DNA from: Verrucomicrobiaceae bacterium
Lineage (GTDB): Bacteria; Verrucomicrobiota; Verrucomicrobiia; Verrucomicrobiales; Akkermansiaceae
Assembly: GCA_027484055.1 (NCBI GenBank)
Contig: JAIXQH010000020.1
Coordinates: 1 to 64,000 of the forward strand
DNA length: 64,000 nt
Direction of reading: 5' to 3'
The notes beneath the pieces were generated by a model that was not told the origin of the DNA, did not search any database, and worked only from the letters and a program-made list of their open reading frames with translations. A program made the translations under genes and the position numbers. Shown in pieces: positions 26,930 to 33,142 of this stretch; the first letter of the stretch is position 1, and each line of letters starts with the position of its first letter.

Positions 26930-27631
26930 CTATTTCGGCGTGCTGTCGGGTTTTGGCTCTGTGCGGGTGCCGGTGCGGATGATTTTACGGGCAGCTTCGT
27001 AGGCGGAGACGAAGGCGGGGTGCCCGGCTTCAAATTGCAGTATCAGGCGGTCGAGCACGTTGGTGAGGTTGTCCTTGGCGCGGTCGATCTCGGCGGCGAT
27101 GGCTTCGGTGATGGCTTTACGGCTGGCGATGGCAGCACGCGGGGTGCCGAGGGTGGAGCCGTAGGCGGTGATGGCGCTTTGTAAGTCGGTAAGCAGGGTG
27201 GCCGTGAGATTATACTCGGCGGTTTTTACCGGGTCTGCGGTGATCATGGCCTCCGCTTCGTCGTGGATGCCTTGGGCGACTTTATCGAGCAGGGAGTCTT
27301 TGGTGTTTTTCAACTCACCTTCTTTGACATCGAACTTGGCGGCGAGGGTGAGGTTTGCCTTTTCAAAGGCATAGGCTCCGGCCGCTCCGGCGACGATAAG
27401 GGTGCGAGTGACGAGTGAAAGTTGGAGGCGGTCCTTGTCGTGGGCGATGCCGGTGAGCGGGTTGCCTTGCGCTTGGGCGAGGGCGGAAAGGAGATTGAGG
27501 CTGCCCTCCAGCCCAGTCATGGCGCGGACGAAGGCGGGGAGACCGGCGGTGATCGGCTTGTTGGCGGGGGCGGTGAGGATCAGAGCAGTGGTCTGAAACA
27601 TGTTGATTTCGGCGACTTGGTCTTTGTTCAT
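26930..27631 (-). CDS. Conserved-looking unknown protein downstream of phased A-tract repeats
   Basis: 233 residues, no signal peptide, Ala/Leu/Lys-rich and apparently all alpha-helical. It starts MNKDQVAEINMFQTTALILT. Two hydrophobic stretches (TRTLIVAGAAGAYAF and NLTATLLTDLQSAITAYG) look like buried helices rather than firm membrane segments. A C-terminal tail rich in Arg/Thr/Pro/Lys follows. I do not recognise a family with certainty, though small helical proteins of this form occur in Verrucomicrobia and Bacteroidetes. Its start codon lies 20 bases from a 300-bp array of 20/21-bp repeats that must hold its promoter or leader. Confidence 0.6.
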   Translation of the reverse strand: MNKDQVAEINMFQTTALILTAPANKPITAGLPAFVRAMTGLEGSLNLLSALAQAQGNPLTGIAHDKDRLQLSLVTRTLIVAGAAGAYAFEKANLTLAAKFDVKEGELKNTKDSLLDKVAQGIHDEAEAMITADPVKTAEYNLTATLLTDLQSAITAYGSTLGTPRAAIASRKAITEAIAAEIDRAKDNLTNVLDRLILQFEAGHPAFVSAYEAARKIIRTGTRTEPKPDSTPK

Positions 27632-27647
27632 AATAGGTGGGGATTAG

Positions 27648-27947
27648 GGGAAAACGGATGGGGAGAGGGAGAAAACAGGTCAGGAGACGCGGAAAACGGT
27701 TTCGGAGACGCGAAAAACGGTTTCGGACATGCGGAAAACGAGATGGGACTGGCGCAAAACGACTTCGGAGGCGTGAAAAACGAAAGGGGAGAGAGCCAAA
27801 ACGACTCGGGAGAGGCAAAAAATAACTTTGAGAGGAAGAAAACGACTCGGTAGAGGCAAAAAACAACTTTGAGCAGGCGAAAACGACTCGGGAGACGCAA
27901 AAAACAACTTTGAGAATACGGGGGCGTATTCGGGACAGCAAAAACCG
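27648..27947. repeat. Helically phased A-tract tandem repeat
   Basis: Runs of three to six A, mostly followed by C, recur with that C at 27655, 27676, 27697, 27718, 27739, 27760, 27781, 27802, (T at 27823), 27843, 27864, 27884, 27905 and 27945; one unit near 27925 has a G-run instead. Intervals are 21 bases, changing to 20 or 21 in the second half. The sequence between A-tracts is G-rich and varies. About two helical turns separate the tracts, which predicts intrinsic bending. The spacing is not always a multiple of three, so coding is not what is conserved. Confidence 0.85.
27914..27931. repeat. Perfect hairpin within the A-tract array
   Basis: GAATACG (27914-27920) pairs with CGTATTC (27925-27931) around a GGGG loop. 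It replaces one A-tract unit. It may be a transcription terminator or protein site at the outer end of the array. Confidence 0.45.
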
Positions 27948-27970
27948 CGCCAACTGAGGAATAACGTTTT

Positions 27971-28037
27971 TAAGGCACCGAACTGACCCAATCATCAGGG
28001 GTGAATCGCTGGCGGTTTGGCCCAGCGGAGCCAGAAG
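27971..28037 (-). pseudogene. Remnant of the 3' end of a pseudopilin-like gene
   Basis: Minus-strand codons read GSAGPNRQRFTPDDWVSSVP and stop, matching the end of the intact gene at 32600-33142 (RSAGPDGLPFTADDLVSSVP). Upstream of this segment the resemblance stops. The two copies bracket the first cassette array and have the same bases (TTAAGGCACCGA) next to the array edge on the right and near it on the left. Confidence 0.65.
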
Positions 28038-28326: not shown

Positions 28327-29007
28327 ATGCCTTCACGAGAATCAATTGATCGCAAGCACCACGAAGCCCATTCTGGATTCTACCTCACTCTTGTGAGTAT
28401 CATGCAGGGTTTGGCGCTCGGATTCCTCCTTCAAACGATGGCAACAGAATTGACGACCACTGGAGGACTGTCGATTTTGTCTCTAGTTCAGTTTGTAGCT
28501 TGCCTAGCAGTGTTGATTATCGTTTGGCACGAGTATGCAATTGGAGTTGTTCTGTTCCGATGGCGGCTAGATATGGCCGATTCGACGATTCCTTTTCTGT
28601 TTGGTATTTCTGAGTATGCCATGATTGAGGCTATAGCTATTCCTGCGTCTGGTCATGATTTATCAAGTTTTCGATTTTCGATCTTCCTTTGGTCCCTTCC
28701 AGTATTTTGCGCCATCTCTTGTCTTGCGTATTGGAATCAATCTTCAAAGGCCGTTATCGATGAAGAGTGTCGCGACATGATTACAGTTTCTAAAAGTAAT
28801 AAAATTCAAGCGTTATGGACGGCAGTGGCATTTGGCGTTATTGCAGGTATTCAACAGTTTTTTCAGTTTGGACAAGTCGGACAGGTGGTAATTGGTTGTG
28901 TCATTGCATTGTCTCTCATCGGTCATTGCATCAGAATCAACCACGCTTATGACAAGGGCTGCCTACAAACAGACGGCGAACAAGACGCTAGTGTCAACCG
29001 GCGATAA
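28327..29007 (+). CDS. Cassette 1: multi-pass membrane protein of unknown function
   Basis: 226 residues with about six hydrophobic segments, near 21-39 (FYLTLVSIMQGLALGFLL), 48-68, 90-108, 118-137, 158-176 and 180-200. A cytoplasmic-looking loop (NQSSKAVIDEECRDMITVSK) lies between the fourth and fifth. No family recognised. It starts 21 bases after the predicted crossover GTT at 28305 and its stop lies inside attC A, as usual for integron cassettes. Codon choice is visibly more A/T-rich than in the housekeeping genes, a sign of foreign origin. Confidence 0.75.
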   Translation: MPSRESIDRKHHEAHSGFYLTLVSIMQGLALGFLLQTMATELTTTGGLSILSLVQFVACLAVLIIVWHEYAIGVVLFRWRLDMADSTIPFLFGISEYAMIEAIAIPASGHDLSSFRFSIFLWSLPVFCAISCLAYWNQSSKAVIDEECRDMITVSKSNKIQALWTAVAFGVIAGIQQFFQFGQVGQVVIGCVIALSLIGHCIRINHAYDKGCLQTDGEQDASVNRR

Positions 29008-29063
29008 CGTCCTTCTTTGAATTCGAGCTTCCATTTCGCCGGTGCCACAGCTAGACGTTCGCT
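28975..29063 (+). other. attC-like site A
   Basis: Outer box GGCGAAC (28975-28981) followed by AAG, matched by GTTCGCT (29057-29063) at the crossover end; GCGAAC pairs with GTTCGC. The inner stem CAACCGGCGA pairs with TCGCCGGTG leaving one unpaired A, the extrahelical base expected of attC. Its centre shares GTCCTTCTTTGAATTCG with site B. Confidence 0.75.
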
Positions 29064-29415: not shown

Positions 29416-29504
29416 AGCGAACAAGACGGCACATCCAACGGCGGGCAACGTCCTTCTTTGAATTCGGGCTTCCATTTCCGCCGTGGATGGCCTATACGTT
29501 GCAA
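29416..29504 (+). other. attC-like site B
   Basis: Outer box AGCGAAC (29416-29422) plus AAGACG as in site A. GCAACGT (29445-29451) and ACGTTGC (29496-29502) are perfectly complementary. The stem CATCCAACGGCGG pairs with CCGCCGTGGATG leaving one A bulged. Crossover at GTTGCAA, 29498. Shares about 30 bases almost unchanged with site A. Confidence 0.8.
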
Positions 29505-29513
29505 AGAAATCCA

Positions 29514-30638
29514 ATGTCAAAGCCTGTCACCGCGAAGATCAACATCGAACGCTCGGAGTTAGCGAAGATACCCTTCATTGATGGAGCGAACATCGGGGAA
29601 AGAGTCCTAACCACATTGACCTTTTTCGATGAAGACAAGTGGCACTTTTGGATCCCTACTCCCGATGGTCTGCACTTTTTGCTTGGGCAGCCCGTTGAAG
29701 GCGATTACTTCGCGAAGTCGAGAGAGGCAGAATCGGACGTTTACTTGGAGTTTCTGAACTTTATGGCTCAACGAGCCTGCTGGCTCGATGCATTAAAGCC
29801 TATCAGCGGCATTCAGTGCGACATTCACAATCTTGGCGCTTCTCTCGCGAAGATCGAATTATTCTACGAAGAGTCATCGAAGCGAAAGACCGAGGTGACT
29901 CGTTTCGTGAGCACTGAGATCGAATACATTTTTGGGGTTTGCCGAAGTCTGTTCGACCTCCTGCAGGAGACGATTGGCAGCATTTGGGGGCGCATTAGAT
30001 TGGTGGACACCACGATTATGAAGAAGAATCTGCCTTCATCATTTCGTAAGATGGTCATGAGTGATCGTGACAGAATGTCGTCCGAGCAGATCGAAGAGAA
30101 GTGGTCTATTCCCCGCGCACTTGCTGACTACTACTATCGGCAAGGCGAGTTTTTTGAGATTCTTCGTTCCTACCGAGATCGGATATCTCATCACGGCCAC
30201 GACTTGAAGTTTCTGTTTGTTACTGAGAAGGGATTCGCGGTAAGCGCTGATGCGGAGCCATTCTCTCGTTTCGATGTCTGGAATGAAGAGCACATGCAAA
30301 CCAATCGATTGGCGTCTTTACGTCCAGTCTTGGCGCATATCATCACAGAGACGCTACGGGCATGCGAAGAGTTCACGTGGGTAATTCAGAGTATAGTGGA
30401 GTTTCCTCCTGAGATTGCTCCTGGATATAAGCTCTTCCTTCGAGGGCATCACACTGCACAGCTATTGACAATGAACAAGGTGCTGGAGGATTGCCTGTGG
30501 TGGGAGAACCAGGCAGAACAGCAACCGAAGATGCAGAACAAGACGTCACTCCTAACGCCTGACCCGCCGCCAGTTCCAGCCGTAATGACCGCTACAACCT
30601 CAACCCCGAGTCGAAGTCTCGCCCCCGGTAAGGCGTAG
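29514..30638 (+). CDS. Cassette 3: unknown protein with HEPN-like motif
   Basis: 374 residues from MSKPVTAKIN, 15 bases after the predicted crossover; an ATG nine codons upstream would lie inside attC B. Mostly helical. RSYRDRISHHGHDLKFLF has the R-x4-6-H spacing of HEPN ribonuclease or ribonuclease-like proteins, next to a helix full of aromatic residues (RALADYYYRQGEFFEIL). Similar layouts are seen in Cthe_2314-like HEPN proteins, but I cannot confirm the family. The C-terminus (PDPPPVPAVMTATTSTPSRS) is a low-complexity tail translated from attC C. No signal peptide or membrane segment. Confidence 0.65.
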   Translation: MSKPVTAKINIERSELAKIPFIDGANIGERVLTTLTFFDEDKWHFWIPTPDGLHFLLGQPVEGDYFAKSREAESDVYLEFLNFMAQRACWLDALKPISGIQCDIHNLGASLAKIELFYEESSKRKTEVTRFVSTEIEYIFGVCRSLFDLLQETIGSIWGRIRLVDTTIMKKNLPSSFRKMVMSDRDRMSSEQIEEKWSIPRALADYYYRQGEFFEILRSYRDRISHHGHDLKFLFVTEKGFAVSADAEPFSRFDVWNEEHMQTNRLASLRPVLAHIITETLRACEEFTWVIQSIVEFPPEIAPGYKLFLRGHHTAQLLTMNKVLEDCLWWENQAEQQPKMQNKTSLLTPDPPPVPAVMTATTSTPSRSLAPGKA

Positions 30639-32505: not shown

Positions 32506-32605
32506 AACAAGCCGCATCGTTGCAGGCGACACCAGCCGACTTGGAACTCCCGAGATTTAGAAATCACCAATGGTCGTGACGGCGAGTCTAGAAGGCTTGT
32601 TAAGG
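32502..32605 (+). other. attC-like site G at the array end
   Basis: AACAAGCC (32506-32513) is perfectly complementary to GGCTTGTT (32594-32601). The crossover GTTAAGG (32599-32605) lies exactly at the stop codon of the convergent pseudopilin-like gene. The same TTAAGGCACCGA follows at both this edge and near the left edge of the array. Confidence 0.65.
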
Positions 32606-33142
32606 CACCGAGCTGACCAAATCGTCAGCGGTGAATGGAAGGCCGTCTGGCCCAGCGGAGCGGATTTCCCACTGGTTTTTCCCGAGGGCGTGGAAATGGA
32701 GTGGGTGTTGCCAGCGGTCGATGAGGCGGTGCTGGGAATCGAGGGCGGGTGAGGAGTCGGAGAGCCAGACTTCGCTGCCGGGGCGTTTGCCACGGAGGGC
32801 GGCGCTCCATTCTTCGTTGGCGGAGAGCGGGTAGGTGGCGGCGGTTTTGGTGAGGGTGAGGAAACTGTTGATGGCGCGGGCAAGCTGGGTGAGATCTTGC
32901 TGGGGAGTGGATTGCGGGGTGGCGTAGCCGAGGAGCATGGCGTCGCCGAGGGCGGTGGGATGAGCGGGCGGAGGCACGCTGGGCTGGCTCTCGGTGAGTA
33001 GGATGCCGGGTGGAATGAGGTCGGCTTTTAACGGGGGCGTGTTGGAAACTGGCGGAGTGGCCGGATGGAAAAAACGCCAGAGGATGAGCGTGCTGACGAT
33101 GACCGCCAGGAGGGTCAGCGGGCGAATGAAGGGGATTTTCAC
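32600..33142 (-). CDS. Pseudopilin-like (type II secretion G-type) protein
   Basis: 180 residues with one N-terminal membrane helix (LTLLAVIVSTLILWRFF), a Pro-rich linker and a C-terminal part LIDRWQHPLHFHALGKNQWE then IRSAGPDGLPFTADDL. The phrase W-x-x-P-x-x, and RSAGPDG-x-x-x-T-x-DD at the end, is the calcium-binding C-terminal segment of GspG-like proteins, which are abundant in Verrucomicrobia. There is no canonical prepilin peptidase site, so it is pseudopilin-related rather than a proven pseudopilin. The start overlaps the stop of the DUF1501 gene (ATGA), giving a coupled operon. Confidence 0.7.
   Translation of the reverse strand: MKIPFIRPLTLLAVIVSTLILWRFFHPATPPVSNTPPLKADLIPPGILLTESQPSVPPPAHPTALGDAMLLGYATPQSTPQQDLTQLARAINSFLTLTKTAATYPLSANEEWSAALRGKRPGSEVWLSDSSPALDSQHRLIDRWQHPLHFHALGKNQWEIRSAGPDGLPFTADDLVSSVP

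Follow-up and report, generated by a model that had tools for sequence, protein, structure and literature searches.

A phased repeat array precedes the gene of a helical protein

The window, by which we mean the whole stretch of 64,000 nucleotides analysed here, comes from contig JAIXQH010000020.1 of a Verrucomicrobiaceae bacterium. It holds an array of short repeats directly upstream of the start of a gene, laid out as follows.

26930-27631, minus strand: gene for a 233-aa protein predicted to be all-helical, one of seven family members in the genome
27632-27641, minus strand: gap of 10 bp between the last fitted unit and the start codon
about 27642-27912, minus strand (the gene's strand): phased array of 13 well-formed units of 20-21 bp, found by TRF, lag scan, unit fit and A-tract positions
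27913-27972, minus strand: three doubtful outer units, holding an inverted repeat (27914-27931) and a fourteenth A-tract

A separate promoter would not fit into the gap; presumably, then, the array either is part of the transcript or serves as promoter region. On the gene's strand, the best-conserved parts of the unit are GTTTT and CTC, and the six well-formed units most distant from the gene alternate between two sub-types. TRF recovers the array with periods of 20, 21, 41 and 42 bp, and it is the sole region of the 64 kb flagged on lags 20-21 (3038 windows of 210 bp).

A-tracts of at least four bases end at 27654, 27675, 27696, 27717, 27738, 27759, 27780, 27801, 27822, 27842, 27863, 27883, 27904 and 27944, that is, at intervals of 21 bp (eight times), 20, 21, 20, 21 and 40 bp, with a best period of 20.75. 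Ten or more equally coherent tracts were found in 0/2000 mononucleotide shuffles. A sequence-only reading of this DNA had given the same intervals, exact to the base. Of the approximately 14 A-tracts that it counted, 13 stand at 20-21 bp steps; the fourteenth, which lies 40 bp after the thirteenth and beyond the 18-nt inverted repeat, is doubtful. Its view that the phase being kept is that of the DNA helix and not that of codons holds, the 20-bp steps breaking the ORFs that overlie the array. A coding origin of the repeats was rejected on this ground, and a unit of the array at another family locus (L003) carries an in-frame stop (frame set by eye).

The 233-aa protein belongs to a patchily distributed family

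The genome (4.4 Mb, 70 contigs) encodes seven members of this first family, and the six paralogues are 25-33% identical to the window protein over the matched part. A search with the single protein gave matches in 9/39 genomes (its own and relatives). With a 20-row profile, 14/286 genomes of the class matched, and among genomes drawn over the phylum 4/387, all four within the class (own genome included in both counts). The 14 family loci of a named collection are all from MAGs labelled Akkermansia, Akkermansiaceae, Verrucomicrobiaceae or Verrucomicrobia. The distribution of the family is thus patchy, and the gene is often present in several copies.

Pfam gave no convincing match for the window protein, and NCBIfam, PHROGs and PADLOC gave none for it or for two paralogues. 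Two AlphaFold2 models (pLDDT 81 and 84, pTM 0.54 and 0.53) had no Foldseek match below E 0.001. With VIA-align, the first model reached a best Z of 9.8 against assorted helical bundles, a value that means little because the models are helical. A sequence search of the PDB returned no convincing relative; thus, neither a DNA-binding domain nor a known fold was recognised by sequence profiles, by AlphaFold2 with Foldseek or in the PDB. Family proteins are for the most part acidic (median pI 5.5 and charge -5 over 35 rows); the window protein has a pI of 6.3 and a charge of -1.

Arrays recur beside relatives of the protein

To score other members, a repeated 21-bp unit was fitted to the 480 bp upstream of each start, with steps of 19-23, 41 and 42 bp allowed and 21 favoured. 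Gene fragments and re-fetched copies were not scored (L018, L020, L022, L023, L025, L026, L030, L037-L040, L042, L047-L049, L051 and L053-L061), nor were L070, L078 and L080. Among the 47 loci scored, 37 stood above 170 and the other ten at 86-121, with shuffle means of 59-117. Once near-copies were removed (L068, L071, L072, L074, L075, L077 and L081), an array of the 21-bp type was fitted upstream in 30/40 loci; three near-identical pairs stayed among the 40, namely L011/L021 and L012/L016, none of whose members has an array, and L002/L003. The sequence-only reading had suggested that array and helical protein may form a conserved two-part element and had proposed to look upstream of homologues, where we indeed find it; since homologues in relatives have arrays, the window array is not a duplication restricted to one strain.

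The fitted steps, counted like column unevenness and the harmonic described below after the fit, are of 21 bp in 372/405 cases, 20 bp in 19 and 22 bp in 9 (20-22 in 400), and a family array holds 9-23 units. A lag scan of whole loci (11,667 windows) flagged one region in each of 17/20 loci, always at the gene's start; over lags 8-60, the best lag was 21 or 42 in 18/18 regions flagged on lags 20-21, that of the window included. The three loci with no flagged region are partial gene matches, and one of them, L080, still has 110 bp that are 80% identical to the L013 array. The array-less loci (10/40) are scattered over the tree: the label changes six times, at least three of these changes being forced by starred branches, and does not mark one clade.

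Two further observations were made at these loci. In six of them (L002, L007, L009, L024, L027 and L032), a pyrimidine run, CCCCTCTCCC, was seen by eye between the array and the start codon. L021 carries an array of the 21-bp type about 1 kb upstream of its family gene (270-500 in reverse-complement coordinates), ahead of a short ORF whose start, we presume, resembles a restriction-helicase N-terminus before it stops.

Each lineage keeps its own motif over a common spacing

The A-tracts are the window copy's own motif and not a feature common to the family arrays. Other lineages have units of their own, such as TCCAAAt..ccc.GGTCG (L003), CTGGAA.....CTCAC (L029) and CCGCAATCGCCCCTGACACTC (L013), and CTGGAA is common to L006, L029 and L046, loci of organisms in three separate taxonomic families. 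Within the unit, some columns are better conserved than others, with p<=0.01 for this unevenness in 24/30 arrays and under 0.05 in 27/30. The 10.5-bp harmonic is the largest in 18/30, which suggests that each unit may present two blocks on one face of the helix. The units are not palindromic in this family (3/30 arrays at p<0.05).

That the units of the window array differ in sequence had been noted in the sequence-only reading, correctly, and taken to speak against recent duplication. This second part stands for the 8/30 arrays in which neighbouring units resemble each other no more than distant units do. In the other 22, the window included (0.60 vs 0.56), adjacent units are more alike, so that some local duplication is likely. 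Distant units share just 0.39-0.79 of their bases, and the spacing is nonetheless steady.

Since the units are fitted beforehand, substitutions between copies of an array provide a cleaner test of constraint. We compared the ten best-conserved columns with the others, defining the columns on one copy of each pair, which introduces a slight bias. Between the array of L005 and a gene-less copy of it (described below), substitutions were found at 3/117 conserved against 25/122 other positions. The corresponding counts were 5/140 and 33/152 for L003/L002, 1/90 and 47/93 for L003/L009, 9/86 and 24/88 for L024/L076, and 8/94 and 42/98 for L015/L076; L009/L081 gave a weaker difference (1/70 and 7/78, p=0.07). 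In the genes of L002 and L003, 13/137 four-fold degenerate sites differ.

Similarity of motifs follows identity of the proteins (Mantel r 0.67, 0/2000 permutations, 25 arrays): its mean is 0.30 at 20-30% protein identity, 0.45 at 40-60% and 0.60 at 60-90%. As both follow one phylogeny, this correlation is no proof of contact. Within the genome, the exact L005 pattern occurs in two arrays and nowhere else. The exact window pattern occurs at six sites, three in the array and three elsewhere, against two for a reversed-pattern control; it catches 3/13 units, which makes for a weak regulon test.

Arrays accompany two further protein families

Forty stretches of the window genome (757,021 bases) were scanned for other arrays. 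Of the 29 regions flagged, nine were inspected singly, giving seven non-coding arrays and two coding ones (L099 and L119); among the other 20, two are the known L002 and L006 arrays, and the rest, 18 regions flagged at other lags, are presumed to be coding sequence or repeats of other kinds. One of the seven further non-coding arrays precedes a DUF6261 gene (PF19775, 3e-19), whose protein scores 0.3 bits against the profile of the first family. Another precedes the gene of a 206-aa protein whose end is FN3-like (fn3 at 0.00016, under the cut-off). The remaining five have no recognised partner gene in the 757 kb, and three of them (L088, L109 and L112) lie between convergent ORFs. In the array at L112:2339-2640, the 42-bp unit repeatedly carries, as seen by eye, the inverted pair GCACT...AGTGC. 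The five also include a copy of the L005 array without its gene, which is 245 bp long, 88.6% identical and ungapped, and whose homology stops at the array.

DUF6261 matched in 8/236 genomes of the class (own included), six over the cut-off, with up to nine copies in a single genome. In all 14 class loci over the cut-off, the best lag on one flank is 40-44 bp, upstream of the gene in six and downstream in eight, against 1/13 of the opposite flanks with sequence. Two loci under the family cut-off (L141 and L142) and partial matches (L155-L158 and L160) were left out of the flank scoring of this and the FN3 family. Flanks were scored by the z of the best lag, without shuffle control, and opposite flanks reach z 5.3 at other lags; L144 and L149 (z 4.5) are therefore marginal, and z alone does not separate L137 (5.2; array inspected) and L150 (5.4) from background. 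The units are private to each DUF6261 array and palindromic in 11/16 arrays tested. In another class of the phylum, 5/8 DUF6261 loci have arrays, two being apparently identical copies. A search of mobile-element collections confirmed none in viral contigs and gave two faecal contigs that are filed as phage and carry no annotation and one Prevotella nigrescens record, all three with 41-bp arrays. The Prevotella stretch holds mob and tra genes and, about 9 kb from the DUF6261 gene, a MipZ-type ATPase; the annotated start of the gene lies inside the array.

Eight FN3-type loci were examined. Four have clear arrays directly upstream (L152, L154 and L151, the last of which is also L092, these three inspected, and L162), one has a weak array, two have one farther upstream and one has none.

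Gene neighbourhood

Five of ten hand-picked neighbours look defence- or toxin-like (type I R twice, a C5 methylase, an AAA/AbiL-like and a HipA-like protein). When neighbours were chosen by a fixed rule (the nearest ORF of >=150 aa, PADLOC at 1e-10), 3/20 matched against 1/9 control ORFs, the matches being OLD-like, SIR2/pAgo-like and one apparently spurious; a defence-island context is thus not supported.

Several other repeats were seen at these loci. Just upstream of the window array, 65 bp (27967-28031) repeat the 3' end of ORF 32600-33142 (32597-32661) at 85%, as would result if about 4.5 kb had been inserted between the two. Two imperfect 84-nt copies (74%) at window positions 28976-29059 and 29417-29500 start with GCGAACAAG, end with ACGTT and lie near the ends of plus-strand ORFs, with a third, partial copy at 30536-30557; we take them to resemble the attC sites of an integron cassette array. 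At L063:3819-3932, a decayed remnant of the 3' end of a family gene with its terminator lies about 3.5 kb from an intact copy. A dispersed, apparently non-coding repeat of 208 bp (88% identical) occurs at L062:641-847 and L063:12527-12733.

What the arrays may do

These results point to an undescribed two-part genetic module, made of a phased array and a helical protein, whose motif differs between lineages. We propose that the array is the DNA half of this module and that a dedicated factor, for which the adjoining helical protein is the simplest candidate, loads onto it cooperatively; this is our leading explanation, held tentatively and with somewhat less than even confidence. Steps of 20-21 bp would set one short motif on the same face of the helix 13 times, and the factor, perhaps the helical protein as an oligomer, would load these sites cooperatively into a nucleoprotein stack. 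Each lineage's module would have its own motif, changing along with the protein, and with a private motif several modules can share one genome. Judged by its architecture, the array would work like an iteron or centromere system: something would bind it as DNA, the binder would be the neighbouring protein, and the complex may serve self-maintenance, self-regulation or chromosome organisation. A cis-array with a dedicated factor fits the spacing kept under base drift, the lineage-specific motifs, the constraint on conserved columns and the recurrence beside one gene family, and arrays recur beside the two further families as well. Against it stand the acidic character of the family, the failure to recognise a DNA-binding domain, the ten array-less loci and the five partnerless arrays. 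That the helical protein recognises its own array is the guess that assumes least, and also the weakest link of the proposal.

The arrays could instead be multi-site operators of the genes behind them, bound by the gene's own product or by another transcription factor in ordinary autoregulation. The position at the gene's start in all 17 first-family loci with a match in the whole-locus scan agrees with this, as do the palindromic DUF6261 units, which are of the kind expected for dimeric repressors. Nevertheless, nine to 23 sites would be a large number for an operator, three arrays without a partner gene are flanked by convergent ORFs, and more than half of the DUF6261 arrays of the class are downstream of their gene. 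As these arrays stand on either side, we find a role as cis-site more probable than that of a plain operator, and we consider autoregulation unlikely, while ranking it first among the alternatives.

A somewhat less probable alternative is that of a mobile or formerly mobile element, in which the array would be the moving part, as in a MITE, and the helical protein cargo or helper. Such an origin would account for the gene-less L005 copy, with its homology ending at the array, for L002 and L003, which are two copies of a 1.3-kb unit with a remnant nearby, and for the patchy distribution with seven (first family) or nine (DUF6261) copies in single genomes. On the other hand, the protein is no recognised recombinase, neither inverted-repeat ends nor target duplications were noticed by eye around the array copies, and the constraint on the motif persists between copies. 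The first family was not confirmed in viral contigs, plasmids (L009 as query) or phages (L015 as query).

Lower still we place a function at the RNA level, in which the array would be transcribed and its repeats would do their work as RNA, in the manner of type III toxin-antitoxin loci. The units are directional and near the start codon, and the missing promoter space behind the window array would fit transcription through it; the helical spacing, however, has no meaning for RNA. In eight DUF6261 arrays (arms set by eye), 36 single changes break pairing, 13 give wobble pairs, four double changes keep it and two break it; with so few compensating changes, a paired RNA seems less likely. Rfam gave no match in the window, and, unlike in type III toxin-antitoxin loci, no ToxN-type toxin was matched behind the repeats in Pfam, NCBIfam or PADLOC.

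The sequence-only reading had favoured selection on bending by phased A-tracts. In a wedge model (angle table from general background), the window array has a predicted bend of 136 degrees, against 88 +/- 21 in shuffles, and 30 arrays have a mean z of 1.27. This excess vanishes against column-permuted arrays of the same period (114 +/- 33 degrees for the window; mean z -0.02, 3/30 above 1.64), and a run of four A or T is found in 2/30 unit consensus sequences (window and L034). Since the predicted bend is no larger than in the permuted arrays, bending is not what is kept: in this model, a helix-repeat periodicity gives the bend for free and further selection is not visible. Curvature as a conserved feature was therefore rejected, and an intrinsic curvature element is very improbable. 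Least probable of all is a neutral minisatellite grown by slippage, which would suit the near-identical units of L027 (adjacent similarity 0.87) and the greater likeness of adjacent units in 22/30 arrays, and which is contradicted by the constraint on conserved columns between copies and opposed by the uneven columns, the steady spacing of divergent units and the link to specific gene families.

Comparison with known systems

In architecture, the nearest systems appear to be iterons and centromeres. The iteron arrays of plasmid replicons are direct repeats about two helical turns apart beside a Rep gene, and their private sites permit several systems per cell. The family arrays likewise consist of direct repeats at a spacing of about two helical turns and adjoin a protein gene; they differ in their 9-23 units and in the protein, for which sequence profiles gave no Rep domain (no Pfam or NCBIfam family over cut-off). 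Two family members, L009 and L015, matched nothing in the collections of plasmids and phages. Plasmid centromeres (parC/ParR, parS/ParB) are arrays of sites for a cognate protein, with helical spacing and a cis-site on either side of the gene. Our arrays resemble them in the helically spaced sites and, for DUF6261, in lying on either side; unlike in centromeres, no RHH or HTH domain was recognised, and one genome holds up to seven family copies. A Pfam scan of ten neighbour ORFs gave no ParA/ParM-type partner; the MipZ-type ATPase of the Prevotella stretch lies about 9 kb from its DUF6261 gene. A curved-DNA element differs in that the arrays have no predicted curvature beyond that of same-period sequence. 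DUF6261 has in common with the window locus the phased array beside the gene, and the window protein is no member of it (no match at E<=1, with a 27-bit threshold).

No description of these arrays was found in the open-access literature, and one may exist elsewhere; the excerpts of PMC4596501, PMC4679880 and PMC4060949 hold nothing on them. DUF6261 is mentioned in an open-access paper on Streptococcus oralis. The nearest published elements seem to be BrickBuilt and the TAACTGA repeats. According to the excerpt, the BrickBuilt MITE of Porphyromonas gingivalis has 23-nt tandem units of one repeat sequence at 19 places, with inverted-repeat ends (PMC4596501); it is likewise an intergenic element of short tandem units, whereas the family arrays differ in motif by lineage and usually adjoin a protein gene. 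The intergenic TAACTGA direct repeats, as summarised in the abstract (PMC4679880), also form sets upstream of start codons with a patchy distribution, across distant phyla, but consist of one fixed heptamer, and the abstract mentions no tied protein family.

Significance

A broader proposal, which we rate as rather unlikely and below the two-part module itself, is that of a new class of self-contained modules in at least two phyla, each a phased array with a private motif that is read by an adjacent helical protein without a known DNA-binding fold. At least three unrelated families would then have adopted the array architecture, and the class would be defined by the array and not by the protein. 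Should the neighbouring proteins indeed read the arrays, the two would make up a large set of protein-DNA pairs, so far undescribed, whose specificity diversified many times while the geometry stayed fixed. Such pairs would offer a natural code linking helical proteins to sites of 21 or 42 bp, and DUF6261 would gain its first testable function.
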